Source: Mangrovimonas sp. ST2L15 (GTDB lineage: Bacteria > Bacteroidota > Bacteroidia > Flavobacteriales > Flavobacteriaceae). Taken from it: 64,000 nucleotides of DNA. The notes beneath the pieces were generated by a model that was not told where the DNA came from, ran no database searches, and saw only the letters and a list, made by a program, of their open reading frames with translations. Within the stretch, counting starts at the first letter, position 1. Each line of letters starts with the position of its first letter. The DNA lies in the NCBI RefSeq assembly GCF_001280515.1, contig NZ_LBIQ01000052.1:1-64000 (forward strand), written 5' to 3'. Shown one piece after another: positions 7,339 through 27,186 of this stretch. Position numbers and translations under genes: made by a program.

Positions 7339-7764
7339 ATGCCACTATCTAAAGAAGACGTTCTTGCCCAAGCCAATTTGGCAAGTAAAAACACCTTAAT
7401 GGAAACCTTGGAAATTGAAATGATTGATTTTGGTGAAGATTTTTTAACGGCAAGAATGCCAGTTAATTCTAGGGTTTATCAACCAGATGGGGTTCTTCAT
7501 GGAGGTGCTACGGCGGCTTTGGCAGAAAGTGTAGGTAGTTTTGCATCTCATATTTTTACCAACATTGAAGAGAAATTTGTTCGTGGTATTGAAATTACGG
7601 CAAACCATTTAAAAAGTGTGACCGAGGGTTATGTTTATGCTAAGGCTACTTTTATTCACCGGGGGCAGACAACGCAATTATTGGATATCCGTGTTACAGA
7701 TGACCAAGATAACCTCATTTCCATTTGTAGATTGTCTACCATTTCGCTTCCAAGAAAGAAATAA
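7339..7764 (+). CDS. Hotdog-fold thioesterase, probable DHNA-CoA thioesterase
   Basis: 141 residues, PaaI/MenI-type hotdog domain. The HGGATAALAESVGSFAS helix (from about residue 54) carries the conserved His-Gly-Gly and the Glu of this class. Its stop TAA shares a base with the ATG of isochorismate synthase, so the two are translationally coupled. That context points to hydrolysis of 1,4-dihydroxy-2-naphthoyl-CoA in menaquinone synthesis (MenI role); the fold is seen, the substrate is inferred. A generic phenylacetyl-CoA-type thioesterase is the alternative. Confidence 0.82.
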   Translation: MPLSKEDVLAQANLASKNTLMETLEIEMIDFGEDFLTARMPVNSRVYQPDGVLHGGATAALAESVGSFASHIFTNIEEKFVRGIEITANHLKSVTEGYVYAKATFIHRGQTTQLLDIRVTDDQDNLISICRLSTISLPRKK

Positions 7765-8879: not shown

Positions 8880-8998
8880 AAATCCTATCGATTCAAAGAC
8901 CTAGTTCGTCGAGTCAATTCCCTAGAACTTCTATTGTCCTTTATATATAATGAGGTTTGTTAGAATTTTGGAGTGTGAAACTCAAACACATTTCAAAA

Positions 8999-10336
8999 AT
9001 GAAACAAATATTAACCATACTAATTTTCTTTACTGGGTTTGTTATTCAAGCACAAGAAGTTGGTGTTGTAGAAGATAGCGGGAATAAAGTTTGGACACTT
9101 CAAGAGTGTATAGACTATGCCATAGAAAACAATATAACGATTAAAGATGCAGAGTATACCAAGCAAACAGCAGATGTTACTTACAAACAATCCAAGGACA
9201 ATAGATTACCAAGTTTAAGTGGTAGCGCGACGCAAAGTTTTACCAACGGGCAGTCTATTGACCCCATTACTAGTGATTTTGTGAACCAGCAAATTCATTC
9301 AACAAGTTTGGGTTTAAATACCTCAGTAACATTATTTCAAGGGAATCAATTAAATAATCAAATCAAACAAAATAAACTACTTGTTGATCAAAATTCACTC
9401 TATGTAGAAGAGGCTAAAAATAATATCATATTAAGCGTTGCTGAAGCCTATTTACAGGCCTTGTATGCTAAAGAAGGAATTATTATAGCTGAAAAGAACT
9501 TACAAGCTTCCACTCAAGAAGCGACAACAGCAAAGGCTCGTTATGAAGCGGGAAGTTTTGCAATGCAAGATTATTCAGATGCATTATCTCAAGAGGCAAC
9601 CAATAATTACAACTTAATAGATGCTAAAAATTCTTATGCCCAACAAGTTATCGTTCTAAAACAGCTATTAGAGCTTCAACCTACAGATAATTTTGATGTT
9701 GTGACTCCAGAAACAGATGACTATCAATCACCATTGATACCAGCTAAACTAGACGTATATCAAGCAGCTTTGGAGTATTTGCCAGAGTATAAAGCATCTA
9801 AGTTAAATGTAGATGTATCTGAAAAGGATTTGGATATAGCCAAAGGTAATTACTTACCAATTCTAGCTTTAACGGGAAGTTTAGGTTCAGGATATACCAG
9901 TGTACAAGATTTAGCATTTAATGATCAAATTAATGGAAATTTCAATCAACGTGTAGGACTGTCTTTAACCATCCCAATCTTTAATAAAAATCAAACCAAA
10001 GCAGAAGTACAAAAAGCAAAAATAGCCATAGACCAATCGCAACTGCAACAACGTACGGTTGAAAAGGAAATTTATCAAAAAATTGAAACGGCTTATCAAA
10101 ATGTCTTAGCGACTCAAGAGCAATTGGTAGCTGCTCAGTCGGCAAGCAATGCGGCCGAAGAGTCTTATAAACTTGCGCAAAAAAAATACGATCTAGGTGG
10201 GTTAAGTGCTACCGATTTAGTGGTTAGTCAAAACACTTTTACCAATGCACAACAAAACTATTTACAAGCAAAATATCTAAACATTTTATACACTCAGTTA
10301 TTGGAGTTCTACCAAGGAAACGACATAAAAATTTAA
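8999..10336 (+). CDS. TolC-family outer-membrane efflux channel
   Basis: 445 residues from the ATG at 8999, which begins the signal peptide MKQILTILIFFTGFVIQAQ; an upstream TTG in frame at 8957 would put a hydrophilic stretch before the signal and is rejected. Two OEP repeats are seen: helical hairpins with LQECIDYAIENNI at the start, NIILSVAEAYLQALYAKEGI, then the second repeat with KAEVQKAKIAIDQSQL and KKYDLGGLSATDLVVSQNTF. It forms the outer-membrane exit duct of a tripartite pump. It is the first gene of a closely packed operon with adaptor, ABC ATPase and permease. Confidence 0.93.
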   Translation: MKQILTILIFFTGFVIQAQEVGVVEDSGNKVWTLQECIDYAIENNITIKDAEYTKQTADVTYKQSKDNRLPSLSGSATQSFTNGQSIDPITSDFVNQQIHSTSLGLNTSVTLFQGNQLNNQIKQNKLLVDQNSLYVEEAKNNIILSVAEAYLQALYAKEGIIIAEKNLQASTQEATTAKARYEAGSFAMQDYSDALSQEATNNYNLIDAKNSYAQQVIVLKQLLELQPTDNFDVVTPETDDYQSPLIPAKLDVYQAALEYLPEYKASKLNVDVSEKDLDIAKGNYLPILALTGSLGSGYTSVQDLAFNDQINGNFNQRVGLSLTIPIFNKNQTKAEVQKAKIAIDQSQLQQRTVEKEIYQKIETAYQNVLATQEQLVAAQSASNAAEESYKLAQKKYDLGGLSATDLVVSQNTFTNAQQNYLQAKYLNILYTQLLEFYQGNDIKI

Positions 10337-10340
10337 GGAC

Positions 10341-11549
10341 ATGAAAAATAAAACCACAAAAATACTCACTCTTGTTATTGTTATATTAATAGTTGCTGGA
10401 GGAATTTACTGGAAATGGGGACAAACTGAAGACACGGTTATTACGGTTGATACCTTAACGGTAAAAAAAGGAACAGTTACTAAAATGGTTACTGCCACTG
10501 GAACAGTACAGCCTTTAACCGAAGTTGAAGTAGGAACTCAGGTATCGGGGGAAGTTGAAAAAATATATGTTGATTACAACAGTATCGTAAAAAAAGGACA
10601 GCTTATTGCCGAATTAGATAAAACCAATTTAAAAGCGTCTTTGGCACAAGCAAGAGCTAGTTATAACAGTGCTTTAAACGAAAAAAATTATTTGCAATCT
10701 ATCTACGATAGACAAAAATCATTATTCGATAATAAAGTAATCAGTCAAGCAGATTACGATGAGGCTTTGTATAACCTAAATACAGCTAAAAATACTGTTG
10801 AACAACGTTATTCAGATTTACAAGAAGCCCAAACTAACTTAAGTTATGCTGAAATTTATTCGCCCATAGACGGTGTTGTATTATCTCGAGAAGTCGATGA
10901 AGGACAAACAGTGGCTGCTAGTTATGAAACACCAACCTTATTTACAATAGCCAAAGATTTAAAAGAAATGCAGGTAGAAGCAGATGTAGATGAGGCAGAC
11001 ATAGGTGAAGTAGAAGAAGGACAAAGAGTAAGCTTTACTGTTGATGCTTATCAAGGTCAGGAATTTGAAGGAACCATTACGCAAGTTCGATTGGATCCAA
11101 CCGAAGAATCTAATGTTATCACCTATACAGTAGTTATTAAAGCAGATAACCCAGAGTTAAAATTAAAGCCAGGTTTAACAGCGACTGTGTATATCTACAC
11201 TTTAGAGTTAAAAGATGTCTTAACGATAGAAGCTAAGGCGGCTAATTTTAAACCAGACATGAGTTTATTACAAGCCTATGAAGCTCAGGAAGAAGTTGCT
11301 ATGCCAAAATCAAGTTTAGAACCAACGAGTAGTCAATCTATAGTTTGGTTAAAAAATAACAAGTCTATTCAACCACAAGAGGTGGTGTTAGGACAAAGTG
11401 ATGGCGTAAATATAGAAATAAAAAGTGGTTTAAGTGAAGGTGATCAGTTAGTGTACCATATGGAATCAACATCTGGTGAAGTGGTTGAAGCAGGGAGTAA
11501 TGAAAGTCCGTTTATGCCAAAACCACCAGGAAAGAATAAAAGGAAATAA
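10341..11549 (+). CDS. MacA-like periplasmic efflux adaptor
   Basis: 402 residues. An N-terminal membrane anchor (about 7-25, ILTLVIVILIVAGGIYW) is followed by a lipoyl half-motif (VGTQVSGEVEKIYVDYNS), a coiled-coil hairpin (~95-165), the second lipoyl half (EIYSPIDGVVLSREVDEGQ), and a beta-barrel domain (DEADIGEVEEGQRVSF, PGLTATVYIY). It bridges the inner-membrane MacB permease to the TolC channel across the periplasm. It starts 4 bases after the TolC stop and ends 2 bases before the ATPase start. The Pro/Lys-rich tail is unremarkable. Confidence 0.92.
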   Translation: MKNKTTKILTLVIVILIVAGGIYWKWGQTEDTVITVDTLTVKKGTVTKMVTATGTVQPLTEVEVGTQVSGEVEKIYVDYNSIVKKGQLIAELDKTNLKASLAQARASYNSALNEKNYLQSIYDRQKSLFDNKVISQADYDEALYNLNTAKNTVEQRYSDLQEAQTNLSYAEIYSPIDGVVLSREVDEGQTVAASYETPTLFTIAKDLKEMQVEADVDEADIGEVEEGQRVSFTVDAYQGQEFEGTITQVRLDPTEESNVITYTVVIKADNPELKLKPGLTATVYIYTLELKDVLTIEAKAANFKPDMSLLQAYEAQEEVAMPKSSLEPTSSQSIVWLKNNKSIQPQEVVLGQSDGVNIEIKSGLSEGDQLVYHMESTSGEVVEAGSNESPFMPKPPGKNKRK

Positions 11550-11551
11550 TC

Positions 11552-12292
11552 ATGAGTAAAGAGATTATTAAAATAGAAAATCTTAAAAGAGAATTTAAAA
11601 TGGGTAATGAAACGGTTCATGCCTTAAAAGGAATCTCTTATACGATATATGAAGGTGAGTTTGTAACCATAATGGGGTCTAGTGGTTCGGGAAAAAGTAC
11701 CATGTTAAACATTTTAGGATGTTTAGATCAACCATCTTCTGGGACTTATCAAATCGACGGGGTGATGGTAAAGGAGCTTAATAGAAACGAACTGGCAAAC
11801 ATCAGAAATGAAAAAATAGGTTTTATTTTTCAATCCTATAATTTGTTACCCAGAACATCAGCCATTGAAAATGCCGAATTGCCTTTGCTCTATAACAGTA
11901 AAGTAGGAACTCAAGACCGCTATGATCGTGCTGTTAGCTCTTTAAAGTTAGTGGGTTTAGGCGAACGATTAGATCATACCCCAGCGCAATTGTCTGGAGG
12001 ACAACAACAACGGGTTGCTATTGCCAGATCGTTGGTGAATGATCCCGTAGTTATCCTAGCCGATGAAGCAACAGGGAATTTAGATACCAGAACATCTTAT
12101 GAAATCATGTCGCTTTTTCAGGAATTAAACAGACAAGGAAAGACCATCGTTTTTGTTACTCACGAACCTGATATTGCAGAGTTCAGTAGTAGAACGATTG
12201 TACTTAAGGATGGTCATATTATAAAAGATGAATATAACTCCAATGTATTAGATGCTGCAGAAGCATTGGCTGCATTACCAAAGGAAGATTAA
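11552..12292 (+). CDS. MacB/LolD-type ABC transporter ATP-binding protein
   Basis: 246 residues. Walker A is GSSGSGKST (~43-51), the Q-loop is [10 protein letters not shown], the signature is [15 protein letters not shown] (~147-161), Walker B is [13 protein letters not shown] and the H-loop is VFVTHE. In this operon the ATPase is a separate protein from the permease, unlike E. coli MacB where they are fused. It powers the tripartite exporter with the adjacent permease. The stop is one base before the permease ATG. Confidence 0.95.
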
Positions 12293-12293
12293 T

Positions 12294-13514
12294 ATGAGAC
12301 TATTAAATTTAACAAAAACAGCATGGAAAGCGATCTTACTTAATAAGGTAAGAACGTTGTTAACCATGTTAGGGATTATTATTGGTGTCGCTTCGGTCAT
12401 CGCTATGTTGGCTATTGGAGAAGGATCTAAAGAGAGTATTAGAACACAAATATCAAGTATGGGATCCAATATGATAAACATTCGGCCAGGAGCAGATATG
12501 CGTGGAGGAGTGAGGTTAGACCCAAGTGAGATGCAATCTTTAAAATTAGCCGATTTTACAGCCTTAAAAGAACAAGCCGATTTACTTACAGATGTTTCCC
12601 CTCAAGTATCTGGAAGTGGTCAGGCTATCAATGGCGCTAATAACTGGCCGACATCCATTTATGGCGTAGCTCCAAATTTTATAGACATTAAGAAGTTTAC
12701 CATTGAAGAAGGAAGTATGTTTACGGAGGCCGAAGTGAATTCCTTTTCTAAAGTAGCTGTTATTGGTCAAACCATTGTTGAAAATTTATTTCCTAATGGA
12801 GAAGATCCTATAGGTAAGATGATTCGTTTTGGTACCACGCCTTTTAAAGTGATTGGAGTACTCAGTGAAAAGGGAGAGAATACCTTTGGTCAAGATCAGG
12901 ATGATGTGATACTGTCTCCCTACACCACAGTTCAAAAGCGTATTTTAGCGATTGACTATCTTCAAACCATTGTAGCTTCCGCTGTTAGTGAAGAATTAGC
13001 TCAAAATGCTGTAAGTCAAGTGTCTGATATCTTGAGAGAGCAACATCATATTTCTGATAATGAGGAAGATGACTTTAATGTGTTTTCAATGGATGAATTG
13101 ATCTCTACCTTTAGTTCTACCAGTGAAATGCTTACTGTTTTATTGGTGGCTATTGCAAGTATATCCCTATTAATAGGAGGGATTGGAATTATGAATATTA
13201 TGTATGTTTCGGTTAAAGAAAGAACCAGAGAAATTGGTTTACGTATGGCCGTAGGTGGTAAAGGAAGTGATATCCTTTGGCAGTTTCTTATTGAAGCTAT
13301 TTTAATCAGTATTACAGGTGGATTAATTGGTGTATCTTTGGGTATGTTAGCAACGGTTTTTATAGAAAATATGCTAAGTTGGCCAACAAGTGTTACCAGC
13401 TATTCCATTATCATTTCCTTTGCCGTTTGTGCAGTAACAGGGATATTCTTTGGATGGTACCCAGCTAGAAAAGCAGCTGCCTTAGATCCTATTAATGCAT
13501 TGAGATACGAATAA
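12294..13514 (+). CDS. MacB-type ABC transporter permease
   Basis: 406 residues from ATG 12294; an earlier in-frame TTG-type start inside the ATPase gene is not needed. The N-terminal helix (LLTMLGIIIGVASVIAMLAIGEG) is followed by a large periplasmic MacB-PCD domain (~50-270) and three C-terminal helices (LLVAIASISLLIGGIGIMNI, LIEAILISITGGLIGVSLGM, SIIISFAVCAVTGIFFGW), ending in FGWYPARKAAALDPINALRYE, the family tail. It acts by mechanotransmission, pushing periplasmic substrate (peptides, macrolides, lipids or toxins) into the TolC duct. The substrate cannot be read from sequence. Confidence 0.94.
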   Translation: MRLLNLTKTAWKAILLNKVRTLLTMLGIIIGVASVIAMLAIGEGSKESIRTQISSMGSNMINIRPGADMRGGVRLDPSEMQSLKLADFTALKEQADLLTDVSPQVSGSGQAINGANNWPTSIYGVAPNFIDIKKFTIEEGSMFTEAEVNSFSKVAVIGQTIVENLFPNGEDPIGKMIRFGTTPFKVIGVLSEKGENTFGQDQDDVILSPYTTVQKRILAIDYLQTIVASAVSEELAQNAVSQVSDILREQHHISDNEEDDFNVFSMDELISTFSSTSEMLTVLLVAIASISLLIGGIGIMNIMYVSVKERTREIGLRMAVGGKGSDILWQFLIEAILISITGGLIGVSLGMLATVFIENMLSWPTSVTSYSIIISFAVCAVTGIFFGWYPARKAAALDPINALRYE

Positions 13515-13515
13515 T

Positions 13516-14556
13516 ATGAATATCAATATTAAGAATAAAGGCATTACCATTTTTTTTCATGCTTTGGTATGGGTGGTTTTGTTTAGCTTTCCATATTTGC
13601 TATCATCCGGTCAAGATCAAGTCTTGATGCGGGTGATTGCACATTCGTGGGTACCTTTATTGATGTATGCTGCTCTATTTTATGTCAACTATTTGATTTT
13701 AGTTGAGAATTTCTTTTACAAGAGGAAAATAGTCTGGTTTTTACTAATTAATGCAGGTTTAATAGCCTTGTGTATTTGGTCTAGGAGTCTCGTTAATGAT
13801 CTATTTTTTCAAGATATATTCCCGAAAATGTCGGAAAAAAATGCGCCTCCAAAAACGTTGTTTATTTATGTTCAAATTTTATCATTTCTAATTCCTATTA
13901 TATTCTCTTTAGCATTGAAAATGGCCGAACGCTATTTAAAAACGGAAGCCGATAGACAAGAAGCCGAAAAGATCAAATTAGAATCAGAATTACAGCATTT
14001 AAAATATCAATTGCAGCCTCATTTCTTTTTTAATTCTTTAAATAACATTTATTCGTTGGTTGATATCTCTCCAGATAAGGCAAAATCTACCATACATAGC
14101 CTAAGTAAATTGATGCGCTATTTGTTGTATGAAACCAATGTTGAAAGAGTCACTTTAAATAAAGAAATTCAGTTTATTGAAAAGTACATTGAGTTGATGA
14201 AATTGAGATTGACAGATAGAACAAAAGTATCCTATCAATTTCCAGAGGTGTCTCATGATGTACAAATAGCACCATTATTATTTATTTCATTGGTTGAAAA
14301 TGCTTTTAAACATGGCGTGTCTTCAAGTGAAGAGAGTCGCATTCATTTTGAAATGCACTTGAAGAATGATAAGATCATTTTTGAAACCACAAACCGTGAT
14401 TTCCCTAAAACAGATATGGATAAAAGTGGTTCAGGTATTGGACTTTTAAATATAGAAAAGCGTTTGAGATTATTGTATCCCAATAAATATACATTTCGCC
14501 ATGGGGCAGAAAAGAACCTGTTTAAAGTTAAATTAATGATTGATTTGAATGACTGA
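13516..14556 (+). CDS. LytS/YehU-type sensor histidine kinase
   Basis: 346 residues. Four hydrophobic segments lie in the first ~140 residues, then a short coiled coil and the His_kinase domain of the LytS class with LQPHFFFNSLNNIYSL (phospho-His about 169), VTLNKEIQFIEKYIELMKLR, and an ATPase domain with SLVENAFKHGVSS and GSGIGLLNIEKRLRLLYP. It starts one base after the MacB permease stop and overlaps the response regulator by 8 bases. It probably senses an envelope signal or pump substrate and controls the efflux operon it belongs to. Confidence 0.93.
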   Translation: MNINIKNKGITIFFHALVWVVLFSFPYLLSSGQDQVLMRVIAHSWVPLLMYAALFYVNYLILVENFFYKRKIVWFLLINAGLIALCIWSRSLVNDLFFQDIFPKMSEKNAPPKTLFIYVQILSFLIPIIFSLALKMAERYLKTEADRQEAEKIKLESELQHLKYQLQPHFFFNSLNNIYSLVDISPDKAKSTIHSLSKLMRYLLYETNVERVTLNKEIQFIEKYIELMKLRLTDRTKVSYQFPEVSHDVQIAPLLFISLVENAFKHGVSSSEESRIHFEMHLKNDKIIFETTNRDFPKTDMDKSGSGIGLLNIEKRLRLLYPNKYTFRHGAEKNLFKVKLMIDLND

Positions 14557-15295
14557 TTTCAAGTTAAATTGCGTGGTTGTTGATGATGAACCAATGGCGT
14601 TACAATTGGTTGAAAGCTATGTAACAAAGACGCCATTTTTACAGCTTCAAAAATCGTGTAGTAATGCTATAGAGGCAATGAATTATGTGTCAGAACATCC
14701 AGTAGATGTCCTTTTTTTAGATATCCAAATGCCCGACCTAACTGGGATTGAATTATCCAAAATGATACCAAAAAAAACAAAAGTGATATTTACGACGGCC
14801 TTCGATCAATATGCTTTAGAAGGATTTAAAGTTGATGCCTTAGATTACTTATTAAAACCTTTTGATTATTCTGAATTTCTGGTAGCAGCAAATAAAGCAA
14901 AGGATTGGTTCAACTTAGTTAAAAAAAGTGAGGAAAATAGAAATATTGTTCAAGGGCAAGAGGTAACAACTAAAGAGTTTTTATTTGTTAAATCAGAGTA
15001 TAAGCAACTTAAAATTAAACTTGATGATGTCTTATACTTTGAAGGATTAAAAGATTATATCAAGATTTGGTTAAAAAACGAACCCAAACCTATCCTTACC
15101 TTAATGAGTTTGAAATCCTTAGAAAACGAACTCCCTGAAAGTGATTTTATGCGTGTACACAGGTCGTTTATAGTATCCTTGAAAAATATCGATGTGATAG
15201 AGCGCAGTCAAATCATTATCAATCAACAACGCATCACGGTTTCCGAACAGTATAAGTCCAAGTTCTTTGAGTTCATCAATAACAATTCTTTATGA
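14549..15295 (+). CDS. LytTR-family response regulator
   Basis: 248 residues. The receiver domain (1-120) has VVVDDEP, the phospho-acceptor Asp58 in VLFLDIQMPDLTGIE, the conserved Thr in IFTTAF and Lys in LLKPF. A LytTR DNA-binding domain (~145-245) has FLFVKSEYKQLKI, YFEGLKDYIKIWL and FMRVHRSFIVSLKNID. It is the partner of the overlapping LytS-type kinase and the last gene of the efflux operon. It converges on the HxlR gene, with a 6-base overlap at the 3' ends. Confidence 0.95.
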   Translation: MTDFKLNCVVVDDEPMALQLVESYVTKTPFLQLQKSCSNAIEAMNYVSEHPVDVLFLDIQMPDLTGIELSKMIPKKTKVIFTTAFDQYALEGFKVDALDYLLKPFDYSEFLVAANKAKDWFNLVKKSEENRNIVQGQEVTTKEFLFVKSEYKQLKIKLDDVLYFEGLKDYIKIWLKNEPKPILTLMSLKSLENELPESDFMRVHRSFIVSLKNIDVIERSQIIINQQRITVSEQYKSKFFEFINNNSL

Positions 15296-15667
15296 TTGAA
15301 TTTTTTCTTGGTAAGCTTCCCGATTTTTTAAAATTGTTGCCAAGTGCTGCTTTGACCAATCTGATAAGGCATCTACATAAGGAATTAGACTTTTTCCCAA
15401 ATCGGTTAGTCTATATTCTACCTTAGGGGGTATTTGTGGATACACTTTTCTATTGACCAATCCATCTGCTTCCAAATTTTTTAAAGATACCGAAAGCATT
15501 TTTTGAGATATATCACCAATGGCTTGATGTATTTCATTAAAACGCAAGACCTCCTGCTGTTCCAAAACCATTAAAATGAGAAGTGACCATTTATCACCTA
15601 TGCGATCTAAAATGTTTCTTACGGGGCAATTTGATGATTCACTAAAATTAACAAATTCTTTATTCAT
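15290..15667 (-). CDS. HxlR-family transcriptional regulator
   Basis: 125 residues from the ATG at 15667 (MNKEFVNFSES); a TTG three codons upstream is less likely. It has the HxlR winged-helix signature: CPVRNILDRIGDKWSLLIL at the N-terminus with a Cys in the position used for redox or electrophile sensing in this family, then LRFNEIHQAIGDISQKMLS and VEYRLTDLGKSL. Family members are repressors of quinone, diamide or formaldehyde detoxification genes. It diverges from an NmrA-like reductase, and the gap holds paired operator-like repeats, so it probably represses that reductase and itself. Its 3' end overlaps the LytTR gene by 6 bases. Confidence 0.92.
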   Translation of the reverse strand: MNKEFVNFSESSNCPVRNILDRIGDKWSLLILMVLEQQEVLRFNEIHQAIGDISQKMLSVSLKNLEADGLVNRKVYPQIPPKVEYRLTDLGKSLIPYVDALSDWSKQHLATILKNREAYQEKIQS

Positions 15668-15811: not shown

Positions 15812-16684
15812 ATGATATTAATTACAGGGGCCAGTGGCCATTTAGGAGCAGCAGTTGTTAATGAACTTTTAAATAGAGTAGAAGCATCTCAAATGGCAGT
15901 TTTGTCAAGAAACGTTGAAAAAGTCAATAAATTTAAGGAATTGGGTGTAGAAGTAAGACAGGGCGATTATGATGATTATGATTCTCTTGTCAAGGCTTTT
16001 AAAGGAGTTGATTCTCTTTATTTTGTATCTGGAAATGATATTGCCTCAAGAATGAAACAACATGAAAATGTGGTTAAAGCGGCTAAAGAAGCAGAATTAA
16101 AACATATTGTTTATACAAGTTTTCAACGCCAAACAGACGAATTGGATTCAATCATTCAATTTGTTGCCGAATCACATATTAAAACAGAAGACCTTATAAG
16201 GGAGTCTGGAATACCTTATACCATTTTAAAACACGGTTTGTATCTTGAGGTAATACCACTTTTTATAGGTGACAATGTTTTGGAAACTCAAACGCTATTT
16301 TTACCAGCAGATGAAGGTAAGGTTTCTTTTGCATCTAGGGCAGATATGGCTCAAGGGGCTGCTATTATTCTTTCAACAAGTGGTCATGAAGGTAAAACCT
16401 ATGAGTTTGGAGGAGAGTTATCTTATGGAATGAAAGATGTAGCCGAGATTTTATCTAAGTTATCTGGAAAGGATATCTCGTATGTAAGTCCAACGATAGA
16501 AGACTTTGTTAATGCTTTAAGCGAAGCAGGAGTTCCTCAAGGTGCTATTGATGTGACAGTTGGATTCAGCCAAGGTATTGCCGCGGGTGAATTTGATCAA
16601 CCTACAACCACTTTAAAGGATATTTTAGGACATGAGTTATTATCGCTTTCTACCTTTCTTGAAGCAACATTTATTGGTGAATAA
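15812..16684 (+). CDS. NmrA-like NAD(P)-binding reductase (quinone-oxidoreductase type)
   Basis: 290 residues, atypical SDR. The N-terminal dinucleotide motif is ILITGASGHLGAAVV; EVRQGDYDDYDSL, LYFVSGND and HIVYTSFQRQ follow the Rossmann pattern of NmrA/QOR2-like proteins. C-terminal FVNALSEAGVPQGAID fits the same family. It is likely an NAD(P)H-dependent quinone or azo reductase, or a redox sensor. It is divergent from HxlR, the usual partner in many bacteria, and preceded by a good promoter within the putative operator. The dioxygenase-like gene begins 31 bases downstream and may be cotranscribed. Confidence 0.88.
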   Translation: MILITGASGHLGAAVVNELLNRVEASQMAVLSRNVEKVNKFKELGVEVRQGDYDDYDSLVKAFKGVDSLYFVSGNDIASRMKQHENVVKAAKEAELKHIVYTSFQRQTDELDSIIQFVAESHIKTEDLIRESGIPYTILKHGLYLEVIPLFIGDNVLETQTLFLPADEGKVSFASRADMAQGAAIILSTSGHEGKTYEFGGELSYGMKDVAEILSKLSGKDISYVSPTIEDFVNALSEAGVPQGAIDVTVGFSQGIAAGEFDQPTTTLKDILGHELLSLSTFLEATFIGE

Positions 16685-16715: not shown

Positions 16716-17543
16716 ATGACAACCAAAGACCTTAAAAACTGGCAGAGCGCCTTACCCTATAAAGACACGACTCAACCTGTGTTATTTATAGGACATGGTT
16801 CTCCCATGAACGCCATTCAAGACAATCAGTTTACCAAACAATGGAACCAATTAGGAGAATCATTAGAACCTCCAGTCGCCATATTGTGTATTTCAGCACA
16901 TTGGTTGACCAATGGTACTTTTGTGACTAACATGGAAGCTCCTAGAACTATTCATGATTTTGGCGGATTTCCCCAACAGCTTTTTGAAGTAGAATATCCA
17001 GTAAAAGGAAAACCAACTTTGGCAGAGGAGATTAAACATCATTTAACGTCTACTCATGTAGGTTTGGATGAAGAATGGGGATTAGACCATGGGGCGTGGA
17101 GTGTCATTAAACATATGTACCCTAAAGCCAATATTCCAGTTGTGCAATTGAGCATCAATTATTTTAAGCCGCCAGAATACCATTATGAATTAGCGCAACA
17201 GCTTTTGGATTTACGTAAAAAAGGTGTGTTGATAGTAGGTAGCGGAAATATGGTTCATAATTTAAGAATGGTGGCTTGGGATAAAATGGAGGACACCTAT
17301 GGTTATGACTGGACGTTAGAAATAAATGATATTTTCAAATCTAAAATCTTGGATGGAAATCATCAAGATTAAATGAATTATCAAAAACTGCATAAGAATA
17401 TCGCTAAAGCAGTGCCCACTCCAGACCATTACTATCCTTTGCTATACACTTTGGGGTTGCAAACTAAAAATGACAGGATTGAATTTTTTAATGATCAGGC
17501 GGTAGCGGGTTCTTTAACCATGACATCCGTTAAAATTGGATAA
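16716..17543 (+). pseudogene. 4,5-DOPA dioxygenase extradiol family (YgiD), interrupted by one in-frame stop
   Basis: The first part (16716-17372, 218 residues) has LFIGHGSPMNAI, CISAHWLTNGTFV, HDFGGFP, LDHGAWSVIKHMYP and IVGSGNMVHNLR, the metal site and core of LigB/YgiD-type extradiol dioxygenases. A TAA at 17370-17372 ends it, but the very next codons continue in the same frame for 56 residues (MNYQKLHKNIAKAVPTPDHY, then PLLYTLGL and FFNDQAVAGSLTMTSVKIG) to a second TAA at 17541-17543. That segment is the conserved family C-terminus, including the PTPDHYYPLLY motif with an active-site His. A single T-to-A change (TTA Leu to TAA) would explain it. The gene is thus probably inactivated, unless the stop is read through or is a sequencing error. 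Confidence 0.85.
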
Positions 17544-17652
17544 ATTTTATCTATCATTCCATAAATTTAAAAATACGTTAAAGCCTATAAATATTGATGC
17601 TTTCATAGTTATCGCTCGTAATTTTATAGGATAAAAATCAAAATATATACAT

Positions 17653-18441
17653 ATGAAAACTTTTAAAAATAAATCAATTATTATAACAGGAGCCGCGATG
17701 GGATTAGGTTATGCAACTGCAAAATTTTTAGCCGAAAAAGGAGCAGATCTTACCTTGGTGGATTTTAATAAAGAAACGCTAGAAGAAACAGCTAAGGAAT
17801 TGAAGGATACATTCTCAATAAGAGTTGTTTCTGTTGTTGCAGATGTATCTAAAGAAGAAAGTGTAAAAGAATACGTAGCTAAGGCCAAAGAGGCTTTTGG
17901 TAAGATTGATGGATTCTATAATAATGCTGGAATTGAAGGTCGACAAGCCGATATGGTGGATTATGATCTAGACGTATTCAAAAAGGTGATTGATATCAAC
18001 TTGATGGGTGTTTATTATGGTTTACGTTACGTACTTCCAGAATTGGTTGCCAATGGTGGTGGACGGATTGTAAACGTGGCCTCTGTAGGGGGAATTCGAG
18101 GGGTATTGAACCAAACACCTTATGTGGCTTCAAAACACGCTGTGGCTGGAATGACTAAAAATGCAGCCTTAGAATATGGTAAGCACCAAATTTTCACTAA
18201 TGCCATTGCACCTGGGGCAATTTTAACACCTATGGTTGCTGAGGCTTTTAAACAGGTTAATCCAGATGATCCAAAAGCAGCGGAAGCAGATTATGCACAA
18301 AGAAATCCAACCAGACGATTAGGTAAACCTGAGGAAGTTGCAAGTTTGGTAGCCTATTTGTTAAGTGATGACTGTAATTATGTCAACGGTCAGGTAATAG
18401 CCATAGATGGTGGTGAATCTAATATGTATGGTAACGCCTAA
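17653..18441 (+). CDS. SDR-family oxidoreductase
   Basis: 262 residues, classical short-chain dehydrogenase. The cofactor motif is IIITGAAMGLGYATAKFLAE, the Asp in TLVDFN after beta-2 favours NAD(H), then NNAGIEG, the catalytic Ser in VNVASVGG, and YVASKHAV with Tyr and Lys. The C-terminus GQVIAIDGGESNMYGNA is typical. The substrate is unknown; the family covers alcohols, sugars and hydroxy-acids. It is followed after 4 bases by a DUF3861 gene, so the two are likely one transcript. Confidence 0.92.
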   Translation: MKTFKNKSIIITGAAMGLGYATAKFLAEKGADLTLVDFNKETLEETAKELKDTFSIRVVSVVADVSKEESVKEYVAKAKEAFGKIDGFYNNAGIEGRQADMVDYDLDVFKKVIDINLMGVYYGLRYVLPELVANGGGRIVNVASVGGIRGVLNQTPYVASKHAVAGMTKNAALEYGKHQIFTNAIAPGAILTPMVAEAFKQVNPDDPKAAEADYAQRNPTRRLGKPEEVASLVAYLLSDDCNYVNGQVIAIDGGESNMYGNA

Positions 18442-18445
18442 GGTA

Positions 18446-18739
18446 ATGGGTAAGAAAGCCAATCACTATAGATTAACAATGGAGGAGGTGATTTTAAAAG
18501 ATCCCAATGAACCTCTTAAAGATCCGATCACTTTGGAATTTGATAATCATGATGACATTTTTAAAATTATGGATATCGTCAAACAAAAGCAGTTGTTTGA
18601 AAGTGAAAGTCAGGCTCAAGAATTTGCCTTAGGACTTAAGCTTTTTAGTGAAGTGATGCTAAAAAATAGAAACCATCCAATTTTTGAATCATTTTATCCA
18701 GCGTTTAGTGCTTTTATGAAGACACTAAAAAGTCAATGA
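18446..18739 (+). CDS. DUF3861 domain protein
   Basis: 97 residues from the ATG at 18446, four bases after the SDR stop (earlier in-frame starts lie within the SDR gene). The sequence pattern KKANHYRLTMEEV, LEFDNHDDIFKIMDIVKQK, FALGLKLFSEVMLKNRNHP and FYPAFSAFMKTLK fits DUF3861. It is a small soluble cytosolic protein with no known activity. A strong hairpin terminator follows, ending the SDR-DUF3861 operon. Confidence 0.8.
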   Translation: MGKKANHYRLTMEEVILKDPNEPLKDPITLEFDNHDDIFKIMDIVKQKQLFESESQAQEFALGLKLFSEVMLKNRNHPIFESFYPAFSAFMKTLKSQ

Positions 18740-18759
18740 TTCATATTCAAACTTATTTT

Positions 18760-18790
18760 AAAAGGAGCCAAATTGGCTCCTTTTTTTTTA
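18760..18790 (+). terminator. Rho-independent terminator
   Basis: AAAAGGAGCCAA pairs perfectly with TTGGCTCCTTTT and is followed by a T-run; it lies 20 bases after the DUF3861 stop. Confidence 0.93.
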
Positions 18791-18888
18791 TCAATTCCAT
18801 TGATTTTTATAAATCGTATTGAAAACATAATTAAGATTTTATAAAAATTATAAACTAAATCGATTTCGTTTTCCGGGAAAAATTTGAA

Positions 18889-18956
18889 CATGATTTTTAT
18901 CATGAAACCCTCTTTACAACTACTCTAACTTTGATGTATAATAATGATTAATCATT
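18889..18956 (+). promoter_or_regulatory. Promoter and palindromes before the methylmalonyl-CoA operon
   Basis: TAACTTTG at 18926-18933 is a perfect TAnnTTTG element 30 bases before the epimerase ATG. Two palindromes flank it: CATGAT-N4-ATCATG at 18889-18904 and the perfect 14-mer AATGATTAATCATT at 18943-18956, just after the likely start of transcription. Their positions suit repressor binding; the factor is unknown. Confidence 0.55.
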
Positions 18957-18963
18957 TTAAGTC

Positions 18964-19371
18964 ATGAATATTTCGCACATAGAACACATTGGAATTGCGG
19001 TAGATAACTTGGAAGAATCCATTCAATATTATGAAAATGTATTGGGGTTAACATGCTACTCTATTGAAGAGGTAAAGGATCAAAAAGTAAAGACGGCTTT
19101 CTTTCTGGTTGGTGATACTAAAATTGAATTATTGGAAAGCACTTCACCTGATGGTCCAATAGGAAAATACATTGAAAAAAGAGGGCCTGGAATACATCAC
19201 TTAGCTTTTGCTGTGGATAGTGCTAATAAAGCCTTAAAACAAGCGGAGGAACGTGGAGTGAGATTGATAGATGCCCAATCTAGAAAAGGTGCAGAAGGAC
19301 TTAATATTGGCTTTCTTCATCCAAAGTCAACAAACGGCGTTCTAACAGAACTTTGCTCCAAAGAGCTATAA
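18964..19371 (+). CDS. mce: Methylmalonyl-CoA epimerase
   Basis: 135 residues of the glyoxalase/VOC fold. ISHIEHIGIAVDNLEESIQYY at the start and ERGPGIHHLAFAVDSANKAL in the middle supply the metal-binding His residues; IGFLHPKSTNGVLTELC ends with the metal-binding Glu. It interconverts (S)- and (R)-methylmalonyl-CoA between the decarboxylase/carboxylase and the mutase. First gene of an operon running to the mutase; the decarboxylase alpha subunit starts 31 bases later. The neighbours make the assignment firm. Confidence 0.95.
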   Translation: MNISHIEHIGIAVDNLEESIQYYENVLGLTCYSIEEVKDQKVKTAFFLVGDTKIELLESTSPDGPIGKYIEKRGPGIHHLAFAVDSANKALKQAEERGVRLIDAQSRKGAEGLNIGFLHPKSTNGVLTELCSKEL

Positions 19372-19402
19372 TAAGATAAATAATTTATAAAGTTTGGAAC
19401 TT

Positions 19403-20962
19403 ATGACAACGCAAGATAAAATCAACGAACTTATAGAAAAACGTGCTAAAGCACGATTGGGTGGAGGTGAAAAGAGAATTGATTCACAACATGCTAAAGG
19501 AAAATTAACAGCAAGAGAAAGAATAGAAATTCTTTTGGATGATGATAGCTTTGAAGAGTTTGACATGTTTGTTACCCATAGAACGAAATCATTTGGGTTG
19601 GATAAACAAATATTTCTTTCAGATGGTGTGGTAACAGGTCACGGTACCATAGATGGTAGAATTGTCTACGTATTTGGACAAGATTTTACCGTTTTTGGAG
19701 GATCACTTTCTGAAACCTACGCTTTGAAGATTTGTAAAATTATGGATATGGCCATGAAGGTAGGTGCACCTGTTATTGGGCTTAACGATAGTGGAGGGGC
19801 ACGTATTCAAGAAGGAGTGAGATCTTTGGCTGGTTATGCTGAGATATTCCAGCGTAACATTATGGCTTCGGGAGTGATTCCTCAAATATCTTCAATATTA
19901 GGGCCTTGTGCTGGTGGAGCAGTTTATTCTCCTGCATTAACCGATTTTACCATCATGACAGACCAAACCAGTTATATGTTTGTAACTGGGCCTAAAGTAG
20001 TACAATCGGTAACAGGTGAAAATGTTACCACTGAACAGTTGGGAGGGGCAAATATCCATTCTACAAAATCGGGGGTTTCTCACTTTTTAGCTGAAAATGA
20101 CGAAGAAAATTTATTGTTGATAAGAAAGCTTCTTAGCTACATGCCTTCAAATAATTTGGAAGATCCACCAATAATTTCAACGTCTGATCCAATAGATAGA
20201 TTGGATGATGTCTTAAATACCATCATACCTGAAAATCCGAATCAACCTTATGACATTTTGGATGTGATCAGCACAATTACCGACAATGGGGAATTTTTAG
20301 AGGTTCACAGAAACTATGCTAAAAACATTGTTGTTGGGTTTGCAAGATTTAATGGCCGTTCCGTAGGAGTCGTTGCAAACCAACCTAAATTTTATGCTGG
20401 AGTTTTAGATACAGAAGCTTCTAGAAAGGCAGCGCGTTTTGTTCGTTTTTGTGACGCTTTCAACATACCATTGGTTACTTTAGTTGATGTCCCTGGATTT
20501 TTACCAGGAACAGGTCAGGAATATGCTGGAATTATTCTGCACGGAGCGAAACTGTTGTTTGCTTATGGTGAGGCAACAGTGCCGAAAGTAACCATTACCT
20601 TAAGGAAATCTTACGGAGGTGCCCATGATGTAATGAGCTGTAAACAACTCCGGGGAGATTTAAACTATGCCTGGCCAACTGCAGAAATAGCAGTAATGGG
20701 AGCGAAAGGAGCGGTGGAAGTTTTGGAAGGTTCCAATATCAGAAAAATTGAAGATGATGATGAGAAGCAACATTATATCGAGGAAAAAGAAAACGAATAT
20801 ACCGCCAAATTTGCCAACCCTTATGTGGCAGCCAAATATGGTTTTATAGACGATGTGATTGAGCCAAGAAATACAAGATTCCGAATTATTAGAGCCTTGG
20901 AACTATTAGCTAATAAGAAAGAGGTGAATCCACCTAAGAAACATTCAAATATTCCATTGTAA
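19403..20962 (+). CDS. mmdA: Methylmalonyl-CoA decarboxylase alpha subunit (carboxyltransferase)
   Basis: 519 residues from ATG 19403 ([17 protein letters not shown]). It has the acyl-CoA carboxyltransferase fold of PccB/Mmd[74 protein letters not shown]. PccB and MmdA cannot be told apart by motif, but the following genes encode the gamma, biotin-carrier and membrane beta subunits of a sodium pump and there is no biotin carboxylase, so MmdA is preferred. It transfers CO2 from (S)-methylmalonyl-CoA to biotin, giving propionyl-CoA. The stop overlaps the gamma-subunit ATG by one base. Confidence 0.9.
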
Positions 20963-21324
20963 TGAAAACGATCCTATTATATACCGATGTTTTGGATGAG
21001 GGATATATCATCCTGATGACAGGACTTTTGATTGTCTTTGGAGGACTACTATTACTTACGTTATTCTTTAAGTATGGATTGCCTTTTATGCTTTATATCT
21101 ATAAGTTGATTACTAAAGGCCCAGACAAGAAGGTTACAGAAATTTCGCCAACAGTCAATGAAAATTTCACCGGGGAAATTGCAGCAGCTATTTCGGTGGC
21201 AGTACATATGTATCTCGATGAACAGCATGACAATGAAAATGCCATACTTACCATTAAGCAAGCCAGGAAAATGTATTCACCATGGAGCTCAAAAATTTAT
21301 GGTGCCTATAACAATAGATTTTAA
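20962..21324 (+). CDS. OadG-family gamma/delta subunit of Na+-translocating decarboxylase
   Basis: 120 residues. An N-terminal membrane helix (about 14-38, YIILMTGLLIVFGGLLLLTL) is followed by a soluble part with EIAAAISVAVHMYLDEQHD and a C-terminal WSSKIYGAYNNRF. This topology and the position between MmdA and the biotin carrier match the OadG/MmdD subunit, which holds the alpha, carrier and beta subunits together at the inner membrane. It overlaps mmdA by one base. Small and divergent, but context is decisive. Confidence 0.85.
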   Translation: MKTILLYTDVLDEGYIILMTGLLIVFGGLLLLTLFFKYGLPFMLYIYKLITKGPDKKVTEISPTVNENFTGEIAAAISVAVHMYLDEQHDNENAILTIKQARKMYSPWSSKIYGAYNNRF

Positions 21325-21351
21325 CCCATTTATTTAGAAAATCTAAAGATC

Positions 21352-21774
21352 ATGAAAAATTTCACATTCAATATAAACGAGAATAGCTACAGTGTTAGAA
21401 TCTTATCGCAAGAAGATAACACCATCGAGTTAGAAGTCAACGGAACAAATTACTTGGTGAAAATGAAGGAAGAAATAAAAAGCAGGAAGACACCTACTTT
21501 AGTGCGTAAACCTTCAACAACAGCACCAGTTGAGCCAGTTAAGGTCAATCCAAGTTCTTCAAAAACAACCATTACCGCACCTATTCCAGGTGTTGTGTTA
21601 TCTCTTAAAGTTCAGGTTGGAGATACAATTAAAGCCAATGATTCCTTGATGATTTTGGAAGCCATGAAAATGGAAAACAATATCGTATCAGAAAAATCAG
21701 GAACCGTTACTGCTATTAATGTAAAACCTGGTCAGCAAGTATTACAAGGAGAAGTAATGATAGAGATTGAATAG
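21352..21774 (+). CDS. mmdC: Biotin carboxyl carrier subunit of methylmalonyl-CoA decarboxylase
   Basis: 140 residues. The N-terminal ~50 residues form a small beta domain (FNINENSYSVRIL), then a Pro/Ser/Thr/Val hinge (~55-75), then a biotinyl domain (~75-140) with ITAPIPGVVLSLKVQVGD and EAMKMENNI, whose Lys is the biotinylation site. It carries carboxybiotin from the alpha subunit to the membrane beta subunit. It lies 27 bases after the OadG-like gene. Confidence 0.93.
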   Translation: MKNFTFNINENSYSVRILSQEDNTIELEVNGTNYLVKMKEEIKSRKTPTLVRKPSTTAPVEPVKVNPSSSKTTITAPIPGVVLSLKVQVGDTIKANDSLMILEAMKMENNIVSEKSGTVTAINVKPGQQVLQGEVMIEIE

Positions 21775-21826
21775 AATTGAGAATGCTTATTGTCTTTACG
21801 GCTAATTAAGCGTAAAAAACTACACA

Positions 21827-23146
21827 ATGAAAAAAATATTATTGATAATAGGTGTAATCTCCCTTCTCATCTCAATGAGACCTATTTTGGGGTTGACTTC
21901 AGCTTCAAATACAGTGGAAACTACTGCTGTGACAAGTATAACAGAGGACGAGCAGGAGGATAGTTTTATTTCAGAAGGAATTAGTGGTGTTAAACAGTTT
22001 TTAAGTTATACGGGTTTTGCTAATGCCCAAGCGGGTAATATCATTATGATCGTAATTGGAATTGTTTTCATTTACTTGGGAATTAAATTTGACTATGAAC
22101 CCCTTTTACTGATTCCGATTGGAGTAGGGGTGATTATAGGGAATATTCCATTTGTTGCAGGGAATCAAACCGGGATTTATGAAACAGGATCTGTTTTGAA
22201 TTACCTTTACTTTGGGGTGGTTAAGGGAATTTATCCTCCTTTAATTTTCTTAGGGATAGGTGCTATGACCGATTTCTCATCGTTAATTGCCAATCCGAAA
22301 TTAATGCTTTTGGGGGCTGCGGCGCAAATAGGGGTTTTTGGAACCTTTTTGGGAGCGCTATATTTAGGTTTTAATTTACCCGAGGCAGGAGCGATAGGAA
22401 TCATTGGTGGGGCTGATGGTCCAACAGCGATTTTCTTATCATCTAAATTGGCCAATGGTGTGAATCTTTTACCAGATGGGACAACGGTTAAAAACCTAAT
22501 TGGTCCTATTGCCATTGCAGCCTATTCTTATATGGCATTGGTACCAGTCATTCAACCTCCAATCATGAAGTTGTTGACTACCAAAAATGAACGACTCATT
22601 AGAATGAAACCACCAAGAGCAGTTTCTCAAAAAGAAAAAATGATTTTTCCTGTTGTTGCCTTATTATTGACTACCTTTATCTCACCAAGTTCATTACCAT
22701 TATTGGGAATGTTGTTCTTTGGAAATTTGTTGAAGGAATCTGGTAGAACAGAACGTCTAGCAGAGACTGCAAGGACCAAAATGATAGACATCGTAACCAT
22801 TCTTTTGGGTGTGACCGTGGGAGCTTCTACCCAAGCAGATATTTTTATCACCAAGGACTCTATGTTGATCTTTGGGTTGGGAGCTATTTCCTTTGTTATA
22901 GCCACTATGGGAGGTCTTATTTTTGCTAAATTCATGAATTTGTTCCTTAAGGGAGATAACAAAATAAATCCTTTAATAGGAGCTTCAGGAGTTTCTGCTG
23001 TTCCAGATAGTGCAAGGGTGGTACATGCTGAAGGTTTAAAAGCAGATCCTAAGAATTATTTACTAATGCATGCTATGGCCCCAAATGTGGCTGGAGTTAT
23101 TGGATCAGCCATTGCGGCAGGTATTATTCTAAGCTTTTTAGGCTAA
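21827..23146 (+). CDS. mmdB: Na+-translocating decarboxylase beta subunit
   Basis: 439 residues, polytopic membrane protein of the OadB/GcdB/MmdB family. Hallmarks are KFDYEPLLLIPIGVGVIIGN, GIIGGADGPTAIFLSSKLA (the conserved Asp of the ion/carboxybiotin path), and the C-terminal GASGVSAVPDSARVVHAEG and HAMAPNVAGVIGSAIAAG. Decarboxylation of carboxybiotin here drives Na+ out of the cell. The first ~65 residues form an extra segment with a signal-like helix (MKKILLIIGVISLLISM) and an acidic periplasmic stretch (TEDEQEDSF), longer than the classical OadB start. It follows the carrier gene by 52 bases and precedes the mutase by 40. Confidence 0.93.
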   Translation: MKKILLIIGVISLLISMRPILGLTSASNTVETTAVTSITEDEQEDSFISEGISGVKQFLSYTGFANAQAGNIIMIVIGIVFIYLGIKFDYEPLLLIPIGVGVIIGNIPFVAGNQTGIYETGSVLNYLYFGVVKGIYPPLIFLGIGAMTDFSSLIANPKLMLLGAAAQIGVFGTFLGALYLGFNLPEAGAIGIIGGADGPTAIFLSSKLANGVNLLPDGTTVKNLIGPIAIAAYSYMALVPVIQPPIMKLLTTKNERLIRMKPPRAVSQKEKMIFPVVALLLTTFISPSSLPLLGMLFFGNLLKESGRTERLAETARTKMIDIVTILLGVTVGASTQADIFITKDSMLIFGLGAISFVIATMGGLIFAKFMNLFLKGDNKINPLIGASGVSAVPDSARVVHAEGLKADPKNYLLMHAMAPNVAGVIGSAIAAGIILSFLG

Positions 23147-23186
23147 CATTATTTTAAAGTATAAAGTAAATTGTAATACATTTTGT

Positions 23187-25001
23187 ATGAGTACTCAGAA
23201 TAAATCACTTTTTTCAAATTTCAGTCCTACCTCCAAGCAGGAATGGAAAGATAAAGTGGACACCGATTTAAAAGGTGTGGATTTTAATAAATTGATTTGG
23301 AAGAATTTTAACGGTCTAAATTTTCAACCGTTTTATAATTCAGAAGATGGTATAGAGAGTTTGCCAAATACGGGCCTTAATTCTCAAGACTTAGTTAACT
23401 TTAGAAGTATTAAAGTAAACACTTCAGAAGAAGGGAACCAGTTGGCAAAACTGGCCATAAATGAAGGGGTGAATGGTTTGTTGTTTGAAATTGATGGTAA
23501 AATTCAGGTCGAAGCCCTTTTAAATGGCGTCGATCTCAATAAAGTTGCCATAAGTTTTTTAATTCAATTTGATCAAATAGACTTTGCCAAATCCTTTTTG
23601 ATTTATGCAGTTTCAACATTGAAGCAAAAGGAAAACTTAAAAGGTTATTTTGACTTTAGAGGTATTTCAAATTATGTCACAAATGGTTCTTTAAATAAAG
23701 CTTTTTTTGACAATTCTGTGGAATTATTGAAACTTACGGGAGCTTTCCCAAACTTTAAAGCATTTACTATTACTGGGGCTTCTTATTTGGATTCAGGTTC
23801 CAACCAAGTGCAAGAGGTTGCCTATTCATTAAATTCATTGGTATTTGTTGTTGAAAAATTGTTGGAAAAAGGTGTTGACGCCAACCAAATTTTTCAAGGC
23901 TTACATGTGGAATTGGCGATAGGGTCAGAGTATTTTATAGAGATAGCTAAGTTTAGAGCCTTTCATAGTCTTTTAAATTTGCTGGCCAATGAATATGGAG
24001 TTACAGATTTTAATCCATTTATAACGGCTAAAACTTCAGTTTGGAGTAAATCGGTTACAGATGCCCATACCAATTTGTTGAGAGCTACTACTGAGGCTAT
24101 GTCTGCAATTCTTGGTAATGTTGATGGTGTTTTAGTGGATCCCTATGATAAAGAATTCAATGAAGCATCACAATTCTCAAATCGTATAGCAGGAAATATT
24201 GCCACCATATTAAAAGAAGAATCCTATTTAGGAAAAGTGGCTAACCCGGTTGACGGATCTTATTATATTGAAGAAGCTACTCAAAAGATTGCTGAAAAAG
24301 CCTTGATTTTATTCAAGGAGGTTGAAGCTCAAGGAGGCTTTTTTGAAGCCTTTGAAAAAGGCTTGATTCAGGATCAAATTTCTGAAATAAGACAAGAAAA
24401 AATAAAATGGATTAGCCAAAGAAGGTTACCATTGGTAGGAGTCAATAAATATCCTAACCTTATGGAAACAATTTCTTCAGAAGTTTTATCCTCAGGAGCG
24501 TCTTCAGACCAAAAACTTTTAAAACCGAGAAGAGCATCGCTAGAAATAGAGGTTGTTAGAAAAGCAACTGAATTATTGGTAGAATCTATTGGTAAAAGAC
24601 CTGTTATTGAGCTTTGTAGTTTTGGAAATTTAACCATGAGAAAGGCAAGAGCCGCTTTCTCCTATGATTTTCTAGGGGTGTCAGGATTTAAAGTTTTAGA
24701 TGAGAAAAGTTATGAAACGGCTCAATCAGCAGCAGAAGCGAGTGCAGAATCTGATTCAGAGGTTGTTGTTATTTGCAGTTCCGATCCAGATTATCATGAA
24801 AGTGCCTTAAACTTTGTTGAAACTTTCCGAAGTAAGAATTCTGAAAAGGTCTTATTGTTGGCTGGAAATCCAGTAGATTTACTCGACCAATTAAAAGAAG
24901 CCGGACTCGATGGTTGTTTGCACATAAAGTCGGATGTCATTCAAACCTTAACAGCCATTCAGAATAAAGTTCAAGAACATTATAAATCTTTAGAAGTATG
25001 A
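23187..25001 (+). CDS. mutA: Methylmalonyl-CoA mutase small (beta) subunit
   Basis: 604 residues. It has the mutase TIM-barrel fold but lacks the complete active-site set of the large chain. Segments such as [23 protein letters not shown] (in part), [40 protein letters not shown] and LVGVNKYPN match MutA. The C-terminal ~130 residues resemble a B12 domain without the DxHxxG motif, as expected for this non-catalytic chain. It forms the heterodimer with MutB. The last codons overlap mutB by 4 bases (ATGA), so translation is coupled. Confidence 0.94.
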
Positions 25002-27130
25002 GAAAAGATTTTTCAAATCTAACATTAGATACGGTAAAGACTTCAAATAAACCTCCAGTAGAGGATCAAGATATTTGGAATACCCCAGAAGGGATTCCTG
25101 TGAAGAAACATTTTTCAAAAGCAGATATTGAAGACGCAGAACACTTAGGGTTTGCGGCTGGTTTACCTCCGTTTACAAGAGGGCCATATAGCACAATGTA
25201 CACCACAAGGCCATGGACCATTAGACAATATGCTGGTTTTTCAACGGCAGAAGAGTCTAATGCTTTCTATAGAAGAAATTTGGCTGCAGGTCAAAAGGGA
25301 CTTTCTGTTGCCTTTGATTTAGCAACACACCGTGGGTATGATTCAGATCATCCAAGGGTGACTGGTGATGTAGGTAAAGCTGGTGTAGCCATTGATTCTA
25401 TTTTGGATATGGAAGTGCTTTTTGACCAGATTCCATTGGATAAAATGTCGGTTTCCATGACCATGAATGGAGCTGTATTACCTGTGATGGCTTTTTATAT
25501 AGCAGCGGCTAAAAAGCAAGGGGTGGCTTTAGATCAATTAAGTGGAACCATTCAGAATGATATTCTGAAAGAGTTTATGGTGCGTAACACTTACATTTAT
25601 CCACCGCAACCATCTATGAGAATTATTGGGGATATTTTTGAATATACGACCAAATATATGCCTCGTTTTAATTCCATTTCCATTAGTGGATACCACATGC
25701 AAGAAGCAGGAGCAACAGCCGATATAGAATTGGCTTATACGTTGGCCGATGGATTGGAATACATTCGTACGGGATTGTCTTCCGGATTAAAAATCGATGA
25801 TTTTGCGCCTAGATTGTCTTTCTTTTGGGCTATAGGGATGAATCATTTTATGGAAATTGCGAAAATGAGGGCGGCCAGAATGCTTTGGGCTAAGATCATT
25901 AAGCAGTTCAATCCGCAGAATCCAAAATCTATGGCATTGAGAACGCATAGCCAGACTTCTGGTTGGAGTTTGAGTGAACAAGATCCGTTCAACAATGTGG
26001 CAAGAACCTGTATTGAGGCGATGGCTGCTGGTTTGGGTGGTACACAGTCTTTACATACCAATGCATTGGATGAGGCTATCGCGTTGCCTACTGATTTCTC
26101 AGCTAGAATTGCACGAAACACACAAATTTATATACAAGAGGAAACACAGATTACTAAATCTGTAGATCCTTGGGCCGGTTCATATTATGTGGAATATTTG
26201 ACTAAGGAAATTGCTAAAAAAGCGTGGAAGCTTATTGAGGAAGTAGAGGAATTGGGTGGTATGGCCAAAGCTATTGAAACCGGAGTTCCTAAAATGAGAA
26301 TTGAGGAAGCAGCGGCCCGCAAACAGGCAAGATTGGATTCTGGTCAAGATATCTTGGTAGGTGTGAACAAATATCAAACGGACGAGAAGTCACAGATTGA
26401 AATCTTGGAAGTTGACAATTCAGCGGTTAGAAATTCACAAATTGAGCGACTTAAAAAGCTGAAAGCCAACAGAGATCAAAATGTGGTTGATGCCAAATTA
26501 AAAGCCTTATCTGCATGTGCAGAGAGTGGTAAGGGTAATTTATTGGAATTGGCCGTTGAGGCGGCAGAAAATTTCGCTACTTTAGGTGAAATATCTGATG
26601 CTTTGGAAGTTCATTTTGGACGTCACAAGGCTGATACGCAATTAATAAGTGGTGTGTATAGAAAAGAAGTGAAAAACGATAGCGTGTTTGAACAGGCTCA
26701 AAAGTTGGCAGATCATTTTGCTGAAATAGAAGGGCGTCGTCCTAGGGTTATGATTGCAAAAATGGGACAAGATGGTCACGACCGTGGTGCTAAAGTGGTT
26801 GCCTCAAGTTTTGCTGACTTGGGATTTGATGTCGATATGGGACCTTTGTTTCAAACACCAGAAGAAGTGGCAAAACAAGCTATAGAAAATGACGTACATT
26901 TCGTTGGTGCCTCCAGTTTAGCTGCTGGTCACAAGACATTGATTCCTCAATTGATAGAAGAATTAGAAAGATTGGGAAGACCAGATATTATGGTGTTTGC
27001 TGGTGGGGTGATTCCAGAACAGGATTACCAATACCTTCTAGATAGAAAGGTTGCTGCCATCTTTGGACCAGGTACTGTGATAGCCAAATCGGCTATTACC
27101 ATCATGGAAAAATATTTGGAACAAGAATAA
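24998..27130 (+). CDS. mutB: Methylmalonyl-CoA mutase large (alpha) subunit
   Basis: 710 residues, adenosylcobalamin-dependent. The catalytic barrel has [40 protein letters not shown] and [20 protein letters not shown]; the C-terminal B12 domain has [18 protein letters not shown] with the cobalt-ligating His about residue 593, then [13 protein letters not shown] and [12 protein letters not shown]. It isomerises (R)-methylmalonyl-CoA and succinyl-CoA. It ends the operon and is followed by a hairpin terminator shared with the convergent meaB. Confidence 0.97.
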
Positions 27131-27152
27131 TTTTCAATAAAACCTAAAAATT

Positions 27153-27186
27153 AAACCCGGTACTGAAAAGTATCGGGTTTTTTTTA
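27153..27186. terminator. Terminator between mutB and meaB
   Basis: AAACCCGGTAC and GTATCGGGTTT form a stem around TGAAAA, followed by a T-run on the plus strand. On the minus strand the A/T flank is weaker, so it mainly ends the mut operon. Confidence 0.87.

Follow-up and report, generated by a model that had tools for sequence, protein, structure and literature searches.

The window, a stretch of 64,000 nucleotides from Mangrovimonas sp. ST2L15, carries a YgiD/DODA-type extradiol dioxygenase gene interrupted by one in-frame TAA, and the interpretation we favor, with a probability of roughly 0.78, is that a genuine nonsense mutation has very recently disabled a dispensable second copy of this gene. 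The copy lies between menF and menD in a short gene cassette made up of an HxlR-type regulator, an NmrA-like reductase, the dioxygenase and a short-chain dehydrogenase (SDR). With a paralogue on contig C25 presumably covering the core activity, the window copy could be spared and would have been newly knocked out, with translation now ending after residue 218 and the third iron ligand lost.

A dioxygenase frame with one internal TAA

Positions 16716–17543 (forward strand) form one continuous frame running from an ATG to a normal stop codon (TAA, 17541–17543) with no shift, and the only interruption is the TAA at 17370–17372. This divides the gene into a 5′ open frame of 218 codons (16716–17372 with its TAA) and a C-terminal piece of 56 codons in the same frame (17373–17543 with the final TAA), exactly as a preliminary description of the sequence had laid it out. 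A single curated model, 4,5-DOPA-extradiol-dioxygenase (NF007914), is hit by both pieces, at positions 4–196 and 213–262 respectively, and the read-through frame reaches 311 bits (cut-off 233) over positions 4–262 of 262; the earlier reading of the gene as extradiol (DOPA) dioxygenase-like, and of the tail as the family C-terminus, is thus borne out. The 218-residue piece alone scores 269 bits against this model, over positions 4–196 only, and also matches the LigB family (PF02900, 88 bits), while the 56-codon tail alone has no Pfam match. The window gene and its two nearest homologues, in genomes G031 and G018, are each 828 bases long, so no indel is needed, again as first proposed. To judge from the sequence, the window gene is a member of the dioxygenase family by descent and not, as written, a working enzyme.

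By sequence, the nearest relatives of known structure are E. coli YgiD (2pw6; 248.5 bits, residues 17–275) and plant DOPA dioxygenases, and the leading fold matches of a model of the read-through frame (mean pLDDT 84.6) are 2pw6, which is also best by fold (E 9.8e-25), the Beta vulgaris enzyme BvDOD (8in2, E 7.4e-24) and 9j2l. In contrast to YgiD, the window product ends at residue 218 of 275. In BvDOD the iron ligands are His15, His53 and His229, while catalysis cannot proceed without His119 and His175 (PMC11926856). All five histidines align with the read-through frame: His15, His53, His119, His175 and His229 correspond to H27, H62, H125, H181 and H238. However, the His229 equivalent is behind the window stop; H27 and H62 precede it, and the three-histidine iron site is not contained in one chain. 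The active-site histidine previously noticed in the tail can accordingly be pinned to the third iron ligand of the beet enzyme. By the same assignment, the 218-residue product retains two of the iron-binding histidines and the pair needed for catalysis, and loses the third ligand together with the last helix (236–247) and strands (255–258 and 271–274) predicted in the read-through model. Since the third ligand and part of the fold lie behind the stop, this product should be inactive through improper iron binding and an incomplete fold.

The stop among homologues and the age of the lesion

Homologous places were collected at E ≤ 1e-60, a limit that would miss badly decayed copies, giving 119 places in one set of 395 genomes and 52 in another of 397, of which nine are common, for 162 distinct places. 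An unbroken frame of at least 273 amino acids is present in 159 of these, and no family member ending at residue 218, which the preliminary description had named as the finding that would speak against a truncation, was encountered. The three lightly broken copies are the window gene, with its one TAA, and two frameshifted copies in G442 (L146) and G699 (L172), which represent further broken members of the dioxygenase family in their own right.

For residue-level comparison, 64 distinct homologues were aligned (loci up to L100, repeats of the same protein left out, an N-terminal motif and the C-terminal histidine motif required); use of these motifs as filters means that the rows are intact and H238-bearing by construction. 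There is no stop codon at the TAA column in any of the 64, the column being occupied by Leu in 59, Ile in four and a gap in one. The disabling stop is thus absent from relatives, with a residue present in 63 of the 64 and a gap in the other, and the proposal that one in-frame nonsense codon cuts a frame of otherwise full length stands. The tail of the window keeps the seven columns that are invariant in all 64 rows. When the count was repeated over all loci without the C-terminal filter, 75 distinct frames were obtained, 71 with the C-terminal histidine motif and four without. Two of the four (L013 and L086) are full-length, have the histidine within a slightly different motif and contain no stop; the remaining pair are the frameshifted copies noted above. 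The third-ligand histidine is therefore present in 73 of 75 distinct frames (71 by motif, L013 and L086 by eye).

The stop is followed immediately by an ATG, and it had been suggested that translation might stop at the TAA and reinitiate there, the 56-residue tail then joining the 218-residue chain in a two-chain enzyme. Such a translationally coupled extradiol dioxygenase, with the short chain giving the third iron ligand in trans, would accord with the adjoining stop and start, with the seven conserved tail columns, with the position of the break within a short predicted helix (216–220), and with the placing of the ATG in a column otherwise occupied mostly by Ile (Ile 58, Leu 3, Val 2 and Met 1 of 64). 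Nonetheless, we consider it very unlikely. First, there is no other single stop-start copy among the 162 places (the window's species being represented by one genome), leaving the suggestion without comparative support. Second, the one homologue with Met at this position (L073) has no stop, and given this and the Ile column, the ATG after the stop needs no special explanation. Third, the tail would supply a metal ligand, so that free assembly of two chains should be demanding.

Readthrough of the TAA, either programmed or by suppression, would yield some full-length enzyme and agrees with the conserved tail remaining in frame, but it is less probable still. None of the features expected of recoding, a conserved stop, a decoding tRNA or a stimulatory structure, was found. 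The stop is not shared by the 64 homologues, and RNA structure at the stop is not unusual when compared with shuffled sequences (z −0.59, 50 of 200 shuffles as good). No ochre-suppressor tRNA is present among at least 42 tRNA matches (150 of 265 first-look candidates scored); ARAGORN named a tRNA at 41 of 42 of these loci, and the one that it missed (L141) has a Lys-type TTT anticodon, its loop being read by eye in the Rfam alignment. The earlier idea of a readthrough site accordingly found no backing.

The tRNA search also revealed a degenerate tRNA-like cluster on one strand of another contig (L143 9100–9600; G000:C24, ~231.1–231.6 kb), consisting of an Asp-type match (32 bits), a Lys-type match with a TTT anticodon (40 bits) that has no regular T loop, and incomplete tRNA halves. 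It might represent a tRNA array of a mobile element or the scar of an integration event, and it contains no suppressor tRNA, the incomplete halves being read by eye only.

Several observations bear on how long the gene has been broken. First, there is no second lesion in the dioxygenase frame. Second, the proportion of nonsynonymous differences (pN) in codons 1–218 is ordinary: 0.116 between the window and G031, 0.137 between the window and G018, and 0.130 between G031 and G018. The synonymous values (pS) among the three copies are 0.79–0.85 (0.80 for window and G031, codons 1–218) and thus saturated, and a dN/dS ratio was dropped for this reason. Third, amino acid changes particular to the window number 15 before the stop and five behind it, as compared with eight and four in G031 and 18 and four in G018. 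Fourth, in a 65-row tree the window, G031 and G018 copies form a clade with 100/100 support and end branches of 0.16, 0.16 and 0.13. The ordinary pN and an end branch equal to that of G031 indicate that ordinary constraint acted on the gene until very recently. In the tail, pN is 0.159 for the window against either G031 or G018 and 0.115 between those two; this small excess over only 56 codons proves nothing, and clear relaxation of constraint is not seen. Little relaxation is to be expected if the loss is recent.

The single lesion, normal tail, ordinary pN and branch lengths support the preliminary description in its choice between a very recent loss and a sequencing error. The second of these, in which the gene is intact in the organism and the TAA in the consensus reflects a miscalled base or a variant from a minority strain, is improbable, though it is the most serious of the alternatives: the assembly is a draft of 56 contigs, there is only one lesion with a fully normal tail, and past constraint is intact. 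Against it, the three other genomes of the genus examined here do not carry this copy (see below), which makes a loss here plausible beforehand, and eight syntenic neighbors shared with G031 are unbroken, with frame lengths equal within one codon; neither point amounts to proof.

A second copy in the menF–menD interval

We next consider whether the gene is dispensable. What would be expected of a recent pseudogene in this respect was found: an intact paralogue is present and the gene is absent in kin. A search of the genome with PF02900 gives two LigB-family matches only, the window copy and an intact paralogue on G000:C25 near 41.5–42.4 kb. The paralogue falls with copies from G001, G002 and G003, all of the same genus, in a supported 16-row group (97/93), and the window copy is in a different group (98/97). 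A scan of genome contigs returned ten loci with 50–63% best-segment identity and no near-identical record, although that scan may exclude records of the window's own genome. We infer that the C25 paralogue can cover the core activity of the broken copy and that the two are to this extent redundant.

The window copy lies between a menF-like isochorismate synthase gene (7764–8879, forward; TIGR00543 just below cut-off) and menD (28384–30144, forward; profile match). An NmrA-like NAD(P)-binding reductase gene (15812–16684, forward) is directly upstream and an SDR gene (17653–18441, forward) directly downstream, both identified by profile matches, and an HxlR/DUF24-family regulator gene (15290–15667, reverse) is divergent from the NmrA-like gene; its match to the redox regulators RrpA and RrpB is below the cut-off (92.7 bits against 185). 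In G031 and G018, which belong to two other genera and hold the nearest kin of the window copy, the order is menF–dioxygenase–menD. A scan of the ~1.5 kb flanks of 87 loci, some of them the same place counted again, showed menF or menD beside the dioxygenase only in these two genomes and, as menD alone, in G507 (L073).

The window interval is wider, and includes an efflux and two-component block, the HxlR, NmrA, dioxygenase and SDR genes, and a further block before menD. The first block (8957–15295) has efflux and LytTR two-component genes, and the second (18461–28191) genes for sodium-pump-type decarboxylase subunits, methylmalonyl-CoA mutase and MeaB. Both are absent from this interval in G001, G002, G003, G031 and G018.

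The dioxygenase copy is missing at this locus in all three of the other genomes of the genus examined. G001 and G002 have the order menF–HxlR–NmrA–SDR–menD, their HxlR, NmrA and SDR genes being 84%, 74–75% and 85% identical to those of the window, and in G003 menF adjoins menD. The spacers between the NmrA and SDR genes (142 bases in G001 and 131 in G002) both align to the joined flanks of the window gene, and may hold a 15-base remnant of the gene end, which in the window lies within the last dioxygenase codons and the spacer to the SDR gene (17528–17652, forward). The match is 11 of 15 bases in G001 and 12 of 15 in G002, a score reached by three and one, respectively, of 3000 window offsets, true offset included. 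Because this remnant is short, the presence of the gene in the ancestor of the genus rests mainly on gene order and on the G031 and G018 copies. The pattern would fit a deletion, for which gene order speaks more strongly than the weak sequence match, and the sister genomes thus probably deleted the dioxygenase rather than never having it. A recent gain between the NmrA and SDR genes in this genome is conceivable. Horizontal import of the window copy was also considered, the other genomes of the genus carrying only the other paralogue, and is less likely given the shared menF–menD position in G031 and G018.

The cassette and the probable loss of its dioxygenase

The HxlR–NmrA–dioxygenase–SDR cassette may serve a catechol or quinone response, with the dioxygenase an optional member. 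In Bacillus subtilis, the catechol dioxygenase operon catDE is under the joint control of YodB and CatR, a repressor of the MarR/DUF24 family (PMC6212828). The likeness lies in MarR/DUF24-type repressors acting over a catechol dioxygenase, whereas in the window the regulator is linked to the dioxygenase by gene neighborhood only. CatE of B. subtilis is also in a different dioxygenase superfamily.

A neighborhood of HxlR, NmrA and YgiD-like dioxygenase genes recurs in several genera of the family (L026, L041, L159 and others). In a scan of 98 loci, which includes repeats of one place, most loci are without the association; NmrA-like genes are near the dioxygenase in G074, G126, G140, G179, G197, G275 and G674. 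An HxlR gene accompanies the NmrA-like gene in G140 (L026/L159) and G197 (L041). An SDR more than 70% identical is near the dioxygenase in L048 and L169.

The window gene carries a warning for annotation, since its 218-residue product, although short of an iron ligand, passes the family cut-off and would receive the name of a functional enzyme. It also provides a lead to the recurring HxlR–NmrA–dioxygenase neighborhood. As a change in a redundant copy, a premature stop of this kind is in itself ordinary. Its modest value would lie in showing gene loss at an early point, at a locus where the sister genomes have no such gene.
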